A stretch of 7,642 nt of DNA from positions 1 through 7,642 of the forward strand of contig JALVAU010000276.1 in assembly GCA_027011025.1 (NCBI GenBank), given 5' to 3'. This DNA is from Campylobacteraceae bacterium. Lineage in GTDB: Bacteria > Campylobacterota > Campylobacteria > Campylobacterales > Sulfurospirillaceae. This document shows, one piece after another, positions 4,351-7,642 of the stretch (positions are counted from its first letter, which is position 1; each line of letters opens with the position of its first letter). The position numbers and the translations under genes were made by a program. Below the pieces are notes generated by a model. The model did no database searches. It worked only from the letters and a program-made list of their open reading frames with translations, and had not been told where the DNA came from.

Positions 4351-5124
4351 CTAAAGTTTCAACTTAAGGCTTATCGGACAGTGATCACTACCTATGATAT
4401 CATCATGAATTTGTGCGTCAATTATATTGTCCTTTAAATCACTTGAGACATAAAAATAGTCTATTCTCCATCCAACATTGTTTTTTCTTGCCCCTGCTCT
4501 GTAAGACCACCAAGAGTATCTATCTTTTATGTCACCATTTACATGTCTAAATGTATCTATATAGCCATTTGATAACAATTTATCTATCCACTCTCTTTCC
4601 ATTTTTAAAAAACCTGATGTGTTTTCATTGGCTTTTGGACGAGCCAAGTCTATCTCTTTGTGAGCTGTATTTACATCTCCACAGATAATCAATGATTTTC
4701 CCTCTTTACGAAGTTTTTGACAATGAGTAAAAAATCTATCATAAAAAGCCATCTTGTAGGCTAGGCGCTCTTCATTTCTTTGTCCATTTGGAAAATAGAC
4801 ATTTAGAAAAACTATATTTTTATAGTGAAACTCATTGATTCTTCCTTCATCTAATATATCAACATTTTGTGCTATACCTGATTTTTCAGATGGTACAGAG
4901 CTAAAAAGTGCTACTCCTGATTGACCTTTTTTACTTGATGAGTTCACATGAACCTCACAAAAATTTTTCTCAAATATTGTTGATGGTATCTGCTCTTTTT
5001 GGGCTTTTATCTCCTGAAGTGCTAAAAAATCAACTTCTTTTTCATCTATCCACCTTAATGCTTCTTTTTTGTCAACTGCTCTTATGCCATTTACATTCCA
5101 AGATACAAAATTTAACTCTTCCAT
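4351..5124 (-). CDS. xth: Exodeoxyribonuclease III / AP endonuclease (Xth/ExoA family)
   Basis: This Mg-dependent DNA-repair enzyme of the endonuclease/exonuclease/phosphatase fold cleaves 5' of abasic sites and removes damaged 3' ends in base-excision repair. Its 257 residues match the family (about 250-270). Motifs in order are: SWNVNGIRA (8-16), with Asn10 and Asn12; LQEIK (36-40), with metal ligand Glu38; NVYFPNG (108-114), with Tyr110; CGDVNTAH (148-155), with Asp150 and Asn152; YSWWSYR (203-209); WRIDYFYVS (219-227), with Asp222; and the closing SDHCP (246-250), with the catalytic Asp247-His248 pair. The GWRIDYF and SDHCP forms resemble the ExoA/APE1 branch. The ATG at 5122-5124 is preceded by GGAG at 5132-5135 with a 7-base spacer. 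It stands alone on the minus strand and converges with murD. No confident promoter was found upstream. Confidence 0.95.
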   Translation of the reverse strand: MEELNFVSWNVNGIRAVDKKEALRWIDEKEVDFLALQEIKAQKEQIPSTIFEKNFCEVHVNSSSKKGQSGVALFSSVPSEKSGIAQNVDILDEGRINEFHYKNIVFLNVYFPNGQRNEERLAYKMAFYDRFFTHCQKLRKEGKSLIICGDVNTAHKEIDLARPKANENTSGFLKMEREWIDKLLSNGYIDTFRHVNGDIKDRYSWWSYRAGARKNNVGWRIDYFYVSSDLKDNIIDAQIHDDIIGSDHCPISLKLKL

Positions 5125-5236
5125 GTTATTACTCCATCAACCAAATGCATCAACTTTTGAAAAACATAGACTTGGTGAAATGTAAACAGAAAAATTTGCA
5201 GAACCTTACTATGCTAATTCAAAAAAATTTCTATTT

Positions 5237-5268
5237 ACAGATTGTCGAGTATCTGTTTTCCCTTCGGG
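5237..5268. repeat. Two adjacent small inverted repeats
   Basis: ACAGAT and ATCTGT form a 6-bp stem around an 8-base loop (5237-5256). Three bases on, CCCTTCGGG (5260-5268) is a short GC stem with a TTC loop. Read on the minus strand, they are followed after nine bases by a run of seven T (5227-5221). That spacing is too long for a standard intrinsic terminator. The role is unknown. Confidence 0.4.
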
Positions 5269-5313
5269 TGCTTTAGTTTTATCCATATATTTTTATGTAT
5301 TCATTTGACTTCA

Positions 5314-5325
5314 GCTTAGCTAAGC
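5314..5325. repeat. 12-bp perfect palindrome GCTTAGCTAAGC
   Basis: This is an uninterrupted 12-bp palindrome in the spacer, about 140 bp upstream of the fecR-like start and 190 bp upstream of xth on the other side. It could be an operator-like site or simply part of the decayed frame described at 5209-5411. No second copy was noticed elsewhere in the window. Confidence 0.45.
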
Positions 5326-5424
5326 CTTCATAAATCTGCTTTGTCTATGAAAAAAACTAAAACATCAAAAGCTGCTCTGTTTGGTCGATAGAGTAACAAT
5401 ACTATTTGTTTTTAACCAATATTT

Positions 5425-5459
5425 TAGTATCATTTAACAAAATTATTCATAAAAGGAAA
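5425..5459 (+). promoter_or_regulatory. Candidate promoter and ribosome site of the fecR-like operon
   Basis: TAGTAT at 5425-5430 is a reasonable -10 box in an A/T-rich context and would give a leader of about 27 bases. A clear -35 element is absent. AAGGA at 5453-5457 lies 6 bases before the ATG at 5464 and is a good ribosome site. I found no convincing sigma-54 or sigma-28 element upstream. Confidence 0.35.
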
Positions 5460-5463
5460 TGTA

Positions 5464-5883
5464 ATGCGTATATTACTCAGTTTTGTATTGCTTGTCTCTT
5501 TTCTATTCGCTCAGGATATTGCGATAGTAAAGAAAGTTACAGGTAAAGTGTTTGCCAAGAGGTCAGAAAAAAATATCAGGTTAAATATCGGAAATAAGTT
5601 GCAAAAAGGAGATATTATAATTACCAAAAAAGATAGTTCGATTGGTGTAATATTTCATGATGGAACTCTTCTTTCCTTGGGTGAAAATAGTATATTGTCC
5701 GTTGACAAATACATATTTGAACCAGCTAATAAGAAATTTGCATTTGATATCAACATGAAGAAAGGGTTAGCGACTTTTGAATCCGGCAAAATCGGAAAGT
5801 TATCTCCAAATTCTGTACACTTCAATGTTCCAGAGGGCACTATTGGAATTCGTGGTACTAAATTTTATGTGGAGGTGAAATAA
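5464..5883 (+). CDS. Secreted FecR-domain protein
   Basis: This is a small exported protein of 139 residues. Residues 1-16 form a signal peptide (basic MR start, hydrophobic core, probable cleavage after FLFA). Nearly all the rest is one FecR domain: GDIIITKKDSSIGVIFHDGT (49-68), SLGENSILSV (71-80), and the closing signature PEGTIGIRGTKFYVEV (123-138). Classical FecR is an inner-membrane anti-sigma regulator that reads a TonB-dependent receptor. This protein lacks the N-terminal cytoplasmic and membrane parts, and no sigma factor or receptor gene is nearby, so only the periplasmic ligand- or partner-sensing module is present. It starts a packed unit with the OmpA-like gene (2-bp gap) and the CHASE2 gene. 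Its specific role is inferred from this company and is not known. AAGGA 6 bases upstream supports the ATG. Confidence 0.85.
   Translation: MRILLSFVLLVSFLFAQDIAIVKKVTGKVFAKRSEKNIRLNIGNKLQKGDIIITKKDSSIGVIFHDGTLLSLGENSILSVDKYIFEPANKKFAFDINMKKGLATFESGKIGKLSPNSVHFNVPEGTIGIRGTKFYVEVK
5871..5878 (+). promoter_or_regulatory. Strong Shine-Dalgarno GGAGGTGA for the OmpA-like gene
   Basis: This near-perfect anti-16S complement lies inside the last codons of the fecR-like gene (Val-Glu-Val), 7 bases before the ATG at 5886. It decides that start and is much stronger than the other ribosome sites in the window. The OmpA-like protein may therefore be made in excess over its upstream neighbour. Confidence 0.75.
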
Positions 5884-5885
5884 TT

Positions 5886-6488
5886 ATGGAAGTAGCAGTA
5901 ATTTTAACATGGATAGGTATGATAGTTGCATCACTTATGCAAAGTCCAGTTCCGCATACTACAGTAGTATTGGTTGATAATGATAAATCACACAATGCAA
6001 TTGTTGTGCAAACAAAAGCCGGTTTAGTTACAATTGATAAACCTGGAAATTATGTAAATCTAACTTCAGCAAAACAGAAACCAAGTGCTATAAAAACAAT
6101 GAGTAAGGCAGAAATAGCTAAGAGATTCAAAAGTGCTATAAAAGCTCAACCTGCAAAACCTATACACATATATCTATATTTTCAAAACGGTACTAGTAAA
6201 TTGACAAAAGAATCTTTAAGTCAACTCCCACACATATATAAACTCATAAAAGAGAGGGCTCCTTGTGATGTTAATATAATCGGACATACAGACACAACAG
6301 GCTCTCAAAAAGCAAACCTGAGACTTTCACTAAAAAGAGCAGAGGGAATAAAAAAATGGATACTGTCAAAAAACACAACCCTAAATAATTTAAAAGTTGA
6401 ATCTTACGGAGAAAATGACCTTTTGGTTCCAACCCCAGACAATGTAGCTGAACCAAAAAATCGTACAGTTGAGCTTTTAATAAGATAA
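5886..6488 (+). CDS. OmpA-family peptidoglycan-binding protein (periplasmic, no beta-barrel)
   Basis: The 200-residue protein has an N-terminal hydrophobic segment (4-19), a linker with some beta character (25-90) and a C-terminal OmpA-like domain (about 93-198). The domain shows the signature GHTDTTGS (133-140), LRLSLKRA (145-152) and NRTVELLIR (192-200). Asp136 and Arg151 have the 15-residue spacing of the diaminopimelate-binding pair of E. coli OmpA (Asp271, Arg286), so it should grip peptidoglycan. There is no outer-membrane barrel and no lipobox cysteine. The N-terminus begins MEVAV, without the usual basic residues, so it may be an uncleaved inner-membrane anchor rather than a normal signal peptide. 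It is translated 2 bp after the FecR gene and lies 14 bp before the CHASE2 gene. A flagellar MotB-type stator role is unlikely because MotA is absent and the MotB plug and anchor features are not seen. Confidence 0.85.
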   Translation: MEVAVILTWIGMIVASLMQSPVPHTTVVLVDNDKSHNAIVVQTKAGLVTIDKPGNYVNLTSAKQKPSAIKTMSKAEIAKRFKSAIKAQPAKPIHIYLYFQNGTSKLTKESLSQLPHIYKLIKERAPCDVNIIGHTDTTGSQKANLRLSLKRAEGIKKWILSKNTTLNNLKVESYGENDLLVPTPDNVAEPKNRTVELLIR

Positions 6489-6502
6489 AGAAGTAAAAAC
6501 AG

Positions 6503-7642
6503 TTGAAATATATCAAAATACTCTACGGAATTATTTTTATACTTTCCGTATATTTCACCACATATAAGAGTAATATAGCAGAGTATTTTGATTATAAATT
6601 TTTTGATATAGGCAGTATCCTAGTAAGCAATGATGAAAAAAAAATAGACTCTTCAGTCATTGTTGTAGATATAGATGAGAAAAGCTTAAGATACCTAGGT
6701 CAGTGGCCTTGGTCAAGATTGATTTTGGCAAAGCTTATGGAAAATATCCTAAGTGCAAAACCAACAAATATCGGTATGGATATAATCTTTCCCGAGAGAG
6801 ACAAAACATCACTCATAGAAATATCAAGATTTTTTAAAAATTACTATTCTCAAGAGATAAAGATATCTGGTGCCAATAAACAGATGTATGACAATGACAA
6901 AGTATTTGCAGATGCCATAAAAAATGCTCAAGTAACAATGCCTGTATATATGACAAATAAAATCAATAGAAAATGCTACATCCCTGAAAAAAACAGACAC
7001 AAACCTCAGAAGATTGATACAATGTATACTTCTGCTTATATGTTGTGTAATCTTGATATTTTACAGAAAAATAGTTCAAATATCGGTTTTATAAATGCTC
7101 AAGAAGACAAAGATGGAATACTCAGAAGAGTTCCTGCATTTATCAAATATAAAAATTACTATATTCCATCGTTTGCTTTAGCAAACCTTATGAATATAGA
7201 CAATATTAAGGTGAGCAATAATTTGATATCCATACTTGGTCATAATTTCAAAACAGATAAAAATTCAAATATTTTACTTAATTTTTACGACAAACAAACA
7301 TATCAACATATATCAGCCGTAGATATACTGTCAAACAACTTTGATAAAAAAAGACTATTAGGAAAATTTGTACTTATTGGCACTACCGCAGTAGGACTGC
7401 ATGATAGATATGTAGCTACTTCAGGAGACATTATCCCCGGTATCTATGTACATGCTACCATAATAGACAATATATTGCACGATTCGACTATATACCAACC
7501 AAGATATTTAAAGTCTTTAAATTATATAATTGCTTTTTTTCTATCTTTAACTCTTTTAATTCTAATTTATAAGAAATTCTATATGTCTTTTATATTACTG
7601 TTTTTAGGTCCAACGATACTATATCTTGCACTAGGACTTTTT
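6503..7642 (+). CDS. CHASE2-domain membrane sensor protein, 5' part (3' end outside window)
   Basis: The frame is open for 380 codons to the window edge. A TTG at 6503 is the only sensible start: an in-frame TAA lies at 6494-6496 and the first in-frame ATG (codon 79) would cut into the domain. AAAGAAG at 6487-6493 is a weak ribosome site. Residues 4-20 form a membrane segment. The extracytoplasmic CHASE2 sensor follows, with VIVVDIDEKSL (52-62), GQWPWSR (66-72), a GMDIIFPERD stretch (about 91-100), a VLIGTTAVGLHDRY stretch (about 286-299) and GIYVHA (313-318). Two more membrane segments are visible at about 339-356 and 361-380. CHASE2 proteins typically have three such helices and then a cytoplasmic adenylate/guanylate cyclase, GGDEF, histidine kinase or Ser/Thr kinase domain. 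That output lies beyond the window and cannot be named. It is the third gene of the fecR-like unit. Confidence 0.88.
   Translation, partial: MKYIKILYGIIFILSVYFTTYKSNIAEYFDYKFFDIGSILVSNDEKKIDSSVIVVDIDEKSLRYLGQWPWSRLILAKLMENILSAKPTNIGMDIIFPERDKTSLIEISRFFKNYYSQEIKISGANKQMYDNDKVFADAIKNAQVTMPVYMTNKINRKCYIPEKNRHKPQKIDTMYTSAYMLCNLDILQKNSSNIGFINAQEDKDGILRRVPAFIKYKNYYIPSFALANLMNIDNIKVSNNLISILGHNFKTDKNSNILLNFYDKQTYQHISAVDILSNNFDKKRLLGKFVLIGTTAVGLHDRYVATSGDIIPGIYVHATIIDNILHDSTIYQPRYLKSLNYIIAFFLSLTLLILIYKKFYMSFILLFLGPTILYLALGLF

Follow-up and report, generated by a model that had tools for sequence, protein, structure and literature searches.

A conserved FecR–OmpA–CHASE2 gene unit in Campylobacterales with a predicted HD-GYP output

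Contig C276 (JALVAU010000276.1) of a Campylobacteraceae genome fragmented into 494 contigs (GCA_027011025.1), 7,642 nt long and analysed here in full as the window, ends in three plus-strand genes in tandem that encode a FecR-domain protein, an OmpA-like protein and a CHASE2 receptor, with intergenic gaps of 2 and 14 nt. This unit is a real, conserved and apparently unreported version of the known FecR–CHASE2 association (PMC9239204, PMC5192318; here and below, cited papers are drawn on in the excerpts available). At slightly better than even chance, we consider that FecR and the OmpA-like protein provide the periplasmic input to the CHASE2 receptor, whose predicted output is an HD-GYP cyclic di-GMP (c-di-GMP) phosphodiesterase. 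A sequence-only reading of the same DNA had described the three genes and their gaps, and the open reading frames (ORFs) and Pfam matches above cut-offs agree with it: FecR at E 2e-09 and 38.2 bits (cut-off 24), OmpA at E 1.7e-16 and 60.8 bits (cut-off 27.2) and CHASE2 at E 3.5e-52 and 178 bits (cut-off 26.3). That reading had also held the ligand and mechanism of such modules to be undescribed; in view of the published FecR–CHASE2 clusters in the two papers cited above, calling the modules undescribed goes too far.

Occurrence of the trio across the order

Of the 398 genomes surveyed from the order, 137 contain CHASE2, with at least 150 CHASE2 places listed. We examined the 50 places with frames shorter than 700 residues (49 fetched and the window) together with 49 of the 100 longer-frame places, giving 99 proteins in total without the duplicate L013 and a broken copy, L074. 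Among 100 fetched stretches, 97 and the window hold these 99 proteins; the other three are L074, L106 and L107. Sorted by output, the proteins comprise 24 with HD-GYP, 69 cyclases, three histidine kinases and three left unsorted, namely the window, L091 (which runs off its contig) and L101, a HisKA_2 kinase by Pfam that falls outside the OmpA-linked CHASE2 clade described below. An OmpA partner, scored as present only at E below 1e-20 (L133, with E 1e-7 at the OmpA end only, is uncounted), adjoins CHASE2 in 24 of 24 HD-GYP loci, two of three kinase loci and none of the 69 cyclase loci fetched. FecR and OmpA both adjoin CHASE2 in all 24 intact CHASE2–HD-GYP loci fetched, in the order FecR-OmpA-CHASE2 in 21 and OmpA-CHASE2-FecR in three (L051, L054 and L056). 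The linked trio amounts to 27 loci in 27 of the 398 genomes: the 24 HD-GYP loci, the window and two kinase loci.

Searches of the same 398 genomes with single parts of the module gave closely overlapping sets. The N-domain of the OmpA-like protein (residues 24-95), which has no Pfam match at E 0.001, returned 30 strong matches, leaving aside four weak ones (E 5e-5 to 6e-4). The window CHASE2 returned 29 matches at E 5e-58 or better, after which values drop to E 2e-50, where the longer-frame receptors begin. All 29 genomes with a strong CHASE2 match, from 14 genera, lie within the 30 OmpA N-domain genomes, and the intact trio genes are neighbours in 27 of these 29. Of the other two, G001 has the broken copy (L074), and G368 has a kinase-version receptor (L065) and a FecR–OmpA pair (L107) on different contigs. 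In the 30th genome, G322, a 3.7-kb contig ends in the OmpA gene (L106), and a receptor of that strength is absent. These counts bear out the earlier proposal that the three genes form a unit, and the genome survey it had suggested shows, with 27 linked trios, that the triad is not unique to this genome.

In a tree built from all 99 CHASE2 domains by a quick method, without bootstrap and with some long rows, L065 and the 27 receptors linked to OmpA form a single clade with a Shimodaira–Hasegawa-like approximate likelihood ratio test (SH-aLRT) value of 100. Kinase output occurs at two separate places in this tree (L108/L109 and L065), and the FecR–OmpA pair is kept whether the output is HD-GYP or histidine kinase. 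Because FecR and OmpA stay while the cytoplasmic part changes, the pair probably belongs to the sensing side of the receptor.

In homologue lists, with the loci themselves unread, relatives of the OmpA or FecR protein come from Desulfuromusa, Gallionella, Oxalobacteraceae and Electrothrix, and Desulfuromusa kysingii contributes a CHASE2–HD-GYP protein; such homologues suggest that the unit is probably not confined to the phylum Campylobacterota. Within the phylum, the lists name Sulfurospirillum arcachonense, Sulfurospirillum sp. 1307 and Sulfurimonas sp. HSL-1716 as carriers of the genes. The lists for FecR, OmpA and CHASE2, each of 120 entries, have 24 source-contig sizes in common, which is suggestive only. 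The single related locus found in named genomes comes from a Campylobacteraceae metagenome-assembled genome. A plasmid collection gave two Azospirillum matches, to the OmpA domain only, and the one opened had an unrelated neighbourhood. The broken copy L074 (G001:C201), from the same genus, consists of a truncated OmpA gene and CHASE2 pieces with a stop; FecR was not found there by profile.

Receptor output in the closest relative

The sequence-only reading had proposed extending the CHASE2 gene to its output domain. In its own genome the gene stops at the contig end, and a search there for the missing part gave a best C-terminal match of 42% only; in the closest relative, L013, which is 95% identical, the extension succeeds. 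The L013 receptor is complete at 632 residues and comprises CHASE2 and an HD-GYP domain with signature residues. Since this full receptor ends in HD-GYP with its signature, the predicted output is c-di-GMP hydrolysis. The HD-GYP fold and signature, within which lie what we take to be the metal-binding residues, are present in L013 and its relatives, this half of the protein lying outside the window. Matches of the HD-GYP part include V-cGAP3, a cyclic GMP-AMP (cGAMP) enzyme. Another contig of the window's genome, C442, starts with a match to the TonB-receptor region downstream of the L013 module, and by the L013 sequence about 3.4 kb lies unassembled between C276 and C442.

In CHASE2 receptors the sensor domain lies between a single transmembrane helix on the N-terminal side and about three on the C-terminal side. 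The L013 receptor model, considered without a topology predictor, has helices at residues 4-22, 334-356, 360-383 and 390-441, which would be in keeping with this layout (the window stops at residue 380). A structure search with this model gave good matches to HD-type domains and barely tested the CHASE2 part, for which a PDB sequence search at E up to 1 gave no match. Alignments were built from parts of the 120 listed relatives (91 for OmpA, 94 for the receptor and 75 for FecR, plus query rows). In the receptor alignment, Cys158 and Cys182 of the CHASE2 domain each occur in 89 of 96 rows and may form a disulfide.

Downstream of the module in L013/L102, L097 and L105 lies a convergent cluster encoding a GGDEF protein together with a small protein and a larger one of about 645 residues. 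The last carries a TonB-receptor plug (Pfam, L013), and the other two were assigned by size, position and the GGDEF motif. The small protein (137-145 residues, with a signal-like start) is YfiR-like by eye only, and kinship of the 145-residue L013 neighbour with YfiR was rejected, Pfam giving no match up to E 5. With a GGDEF gene beside CHASE2–HD-GYP, opposite c-di-GMP enzymes would adjoin.

FecR and OmpA partners

The window FecR domain runs to the C-terminus of a protein predicted to be secreted, and hydrophobic N-termini were seen by eye in the FecR proteins of 25 triad rows. Across 12 genomes picked for carrying CHASE2, the Pfam FecR model marked 22 places, 20 of them within 3 kb of a CHASE2 gene, in line with the earlier remark that the two genes are often neighbours. 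Both places away from CHASE2 are in G349; one is a partial match and the other (L147), about 7 kb from the module, is paired with a lipoprotein-type OmpA. FecR stands beside CHASE2–cyclases in at least 47 of 69 cases; this is a lower bound, since the count covers fetched stretches only, some of which stop where their contig does, and relies on a profile built from the window FecR. The window FecR protein scores 41.5 bits against the NCBIfam model retention_LapA, a LapA-type retention module, under the cut-off of 50, and its sole match in a PDB sequence search is a weak one to an antifreeze protein (5ix9, E 1.5e-4). A frame of 1106 residues with both FecR and CHASE2 domains (L133) was set aside as an apparent assembly-gap artefact because it crosses unknown residues and a shifted alanine-rich repeat.

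In the OmpA family, the equivalents of Asp136 and Arg151 bind peptidoglycan. Both residues are identical in 92 of 92 aligned rows, at positions reported as peptidoglycan-binding (PMC4887326). The constant part of the OmpA partner is the N-domain plus the OmpA domain (L051, where the cut was misplaced, is excluded from the N-domain alignment). Its anchor takes several forms among the 25 triad rows. Twenty, the window among them, start with a hydrophobic helix and show no lipobox by the pattern; two (L049 and L058) have a lipobox; and the remaining three (L051, L054 and L056) carry an extended N-terminal part in which a calcium-type repeat is visible by eye. The long extensions of L051 and L056 appear barrel-like by eye, and a simple pattern detects a lipobox in 33 of the 92 aligned OmpA relatives. 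Positive charge is absent from the first eight residues in 67 of these 92 rows, lipoproteins included; in the window protein (5886-5945) and its relatives this is odd for an inner-membrane anchor.

Features and neighbours of the locus

Coordinates of the module are collected in Table 1. Pfam was run on 7 window proteins and 6 L013 proteins, other ORFs lying outside that sample. Upstream of the module, it identifies a phosphoglycerate mutase, a family 4 glycosyl transferase and a Mur ligase, with an endonuclease/exonuclease family gene on the opposite strand. At most other loci the upstream neighbours differ in size and strand from these.

Table 1. Parts of the FecR–OmpA–CHASE2 module and their positions in the window
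Feature	Position	Strand	Basis
FecR-domain protein, 139 residues	5464..5883	+	ORF; Pfam FecR residues 51-137; hydrophobic signal-like N-terminus
OmpA-like protein, 200 residues	5886..6488	+	ORF; Pfam OmpA; AlphaFold mean predicted local distance difference test (pLDDT) 91.7
N-terminal hydrophobic helix of OmpA-like protein, residues 2-18, without lipobox	5889..5939	+	AlphaFold model; pattern
N-domain of OmpA-like protein, particular to its family (30 strong matches in 398 genomes), residues 24-95: four short strands, then helices in the AlphaFold model	5955..6170	+	
OmpA-type domain	6177..6464	+	Pfam, alignment; fold matches OmpA/Pal-type domains
CHASE2 receptor, first 380 codons, TTG start, cut by contig end	6503..7642	+	ORF, Pfam
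CHASE2 domain match	6554..7555	+	Pfam residues 18-351
Stretch between Cys codons of CHASE2 domain, residues 158 and 182	6974..7048	+	alignment

Proposed relay and its alternatives

In the reading that we favour, the OmpA-like protein would be fixed to peptidoglycan and report the spacing or state of the wall and outer membrane, and FecR would be a soluble intermediary, docking on the ectodomain of CHASE2. By analogy with the action of YfiB on YfiR, OmpA would set the amount of FecR free to dock. Docking would shift the transmembrane bundle and the long helix (390-441 in the L013 model), setting phosphodiesterase activity and, through it, c-di-GMP-controlled attachment or motility; either sign, activation or inhibition, would fit. 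Such a relay, in which wall-bound OmpA acts through the soluble messenger FecR on its receptor CHASE2, would resemble YfiBNR by analogy of parts and places only. The putative operon would likely let the cell adjust c-di-GMP to the state of its envelope. We advance more tentatively a wider proposal, in which the FecR domain would be the general CHASE2 ligand, held and metered in this clade by peptidoglycan-bound OmpA, with c-di-GMP destroyed and the outputs (HD-GYP and histidine kinase) swapped under an unchanging input part.

Several observations weigh against the proposed relay. FecR–OmpA pairs without adjoining CHASE2 occur at L107 (G368) and L147 (G349), both with a lipoprotein-type OmpA, and the L106 OmpA gene at its contig end likewise has no adjoining CHASE2; the pair may therefore have a job of its own. 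No true FecR–CHASE2 fusion was seen, and the HD-GYP half is absent from the window and from its own genome assembly. The N-terminal helix of the window OmpA protein has no positive charge, so its anchoring is uncertain. Pairwise distances are correlated between the three proteins (r 0.87-0.89, 25 loci, 0 of 2000 permutations), and since species descent alone would give such values, this correlation is confounded. Finally, a scan of 5100-6700 found 4 promoter-like sites versus 7.9 in shuffles and 0 terminators; being no better than shuffles, it is evidence neither for nor against co-transcription.

FecR and OmpA might instead form one wall-anchored co-receptor, seated permanently on CHASE2 and relaying tension or spacing as a sensor of mechanics or integrity, with no release or capture, an arrangement that we regard as rather unlikely. 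The tandem order and the presence of one gene of each per locus would suit it, as would the tolerance of varied OmpA ties to the envelope (hydrophobic helix, lipobox, or the long N-terminal extension of L051 and L056), yet FecR is a separate protein in 27 of 27 linked trios. A less probable alternative gives the FecR–OmpA pair its own envelope job, such as outer-membrane or wall maintenance, which the receptor monitors or merely accompanies. The L107 and L147 pairs and the L106 gene speak for it, but of the 30 genomes that carry the OmpA N-domain, 29 also have the receptor, and even the genome of L107 has this CHASE2 clade on another contig (L065). Cell-surface signalling of the FecI-FecR-FecA type, with FecR as an anti-sigma factor, draws on the Pfam FecR match and is very improbable given the domain content: the 139-residue protein consists of a FecR domain behind a signal-like start and lacks a cytoplasmic anti-sigma part, and no sigma factor turned up in the Pfam sample of 7 proteins from the window and 6 from L013. 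The last alternative, that three unrelated envelope genes lie together by chance, found no supporting evidence and has a negligible probability against the census of 29 in 30 genomes and 27 linked trios.

The recognition target of CHASE2 was called unknown in 2016 (PMC5192318), and in one later case a plant protein is sensed via an outer-membrane barrel (PMC13001267). Because the receptors of this clade retain the same two partners while output, gene order and anchor change, they point to candidates for CHASE2 input, with FecR as the docking partner and OmpA as the wall link. If true, the relay through soluble FecR would be YfiBNR-like logic with the opposite enzyme, built from unrelated parts. 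To the sequence-only reading, the analysis adds the predicted HD-GYP output, the swap to histidine kinase and the varying OmpA anchor.

Comparison with known systems

No publication on an OmpA/HD-GYP version of FecR–CHASE2 was found in a search that left subscription papers mostly and preprints wholly outside. Publications pairing CHASE2 with HD-GYP terms describe no CHASE2–HD-GYP receptor in their available excerpts, and those pairing CHASE2 with OmpA terms were unrelated, judged by title.

One close published relative is the Campylobacterota CHASE2–adenylate cyclase cluster (PMC9239204), in which FecR likewise adjoins CHASE2 and the output acts on a cyclic nucleotide; its authors suggest a single pathway. 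That cluster differs in its adenylate cyclase output and in its partners, a TPR protein and a cyclic AMP (cAMP) phosphodiesterase (PMC9239204). In the cyclase loci that we fetched, FecR is mostly longer than here (two are of about 146-165 residues, L124 and L127), the window-type OmpA is absent from 69 of 69 and the receptors belong to a different CHASE2 clade. Conversely, no TPR partner occurs among the window and L013 proteins in our Pfam sample. Beside one CHASE2-cyclase (L075, 9172-11520), a single protein of about 780 residues combines, by Pfam, a class-II cAMP phosphodiesterase, GAF and HD-GYP; with similar genes by other CHASE2-cyclases, proteins of this type link cAMP and possibly c-di-GMP turnover. 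In other published cases, a CHASE2-cyclase gene comes after that of MtxA (PMC4439547), and the Clr regulon of Sinorhizobium includes a FecR protein (PMC5498481).

The BiofilmReg operon of Burkholderia and relatives (PMC5192318) similarly places a CHASE2 receptor in one operon with FecR and peptidoglycan-binding domains. It differs in joining LysM and FecR in one protein, in containing a histidine kinase, a response regulator and a DUF4136 protein, and in its Beta- and Gammaproteobacteria hosts; a strain without biofilm production has an insertion in the response-regulator gene (PMC5192318). Sinorhizobium meliloti CyaD1, CyaD2 and CyaK are likewise CHASE2 receptors that need an outer-membrane partner for their signal, although there the partner is the beta-barrel NsrA, the signal a plant protein and the output cAMP (PMC13001267).

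The YfiBNR system of Pseudomonas aeruginosa (PMC4887326, PMC4655355) offers a parallel in layout: a three-part relay from envelope to c-di-GMP, with an OmpA-type protein bearing peptidoglycan-binding residues and a small periplasmic protein. In that system the OmpA/Pal-like lipoprotein YfiB frees the cyclase YfiN by sequestering YfiR (PMC4887326). Three YfiBNR features were tested and found wanting here: the window OmpA protein scores 35.7 bits against the YfiB family model (cut-off 128), the receptor output is HD-GYP in L013, a relative, the window's own gene being cut, rather than GGDEF, and in place of a YfiR-type repressor the small protein matches only FecR in Pfam. The two systems would also work in opposite directions, YfiN being a diguanylate cyclase that makes c-di-GMP, whereas CHASE2 with HD-GYP, as in L013, would break it down.
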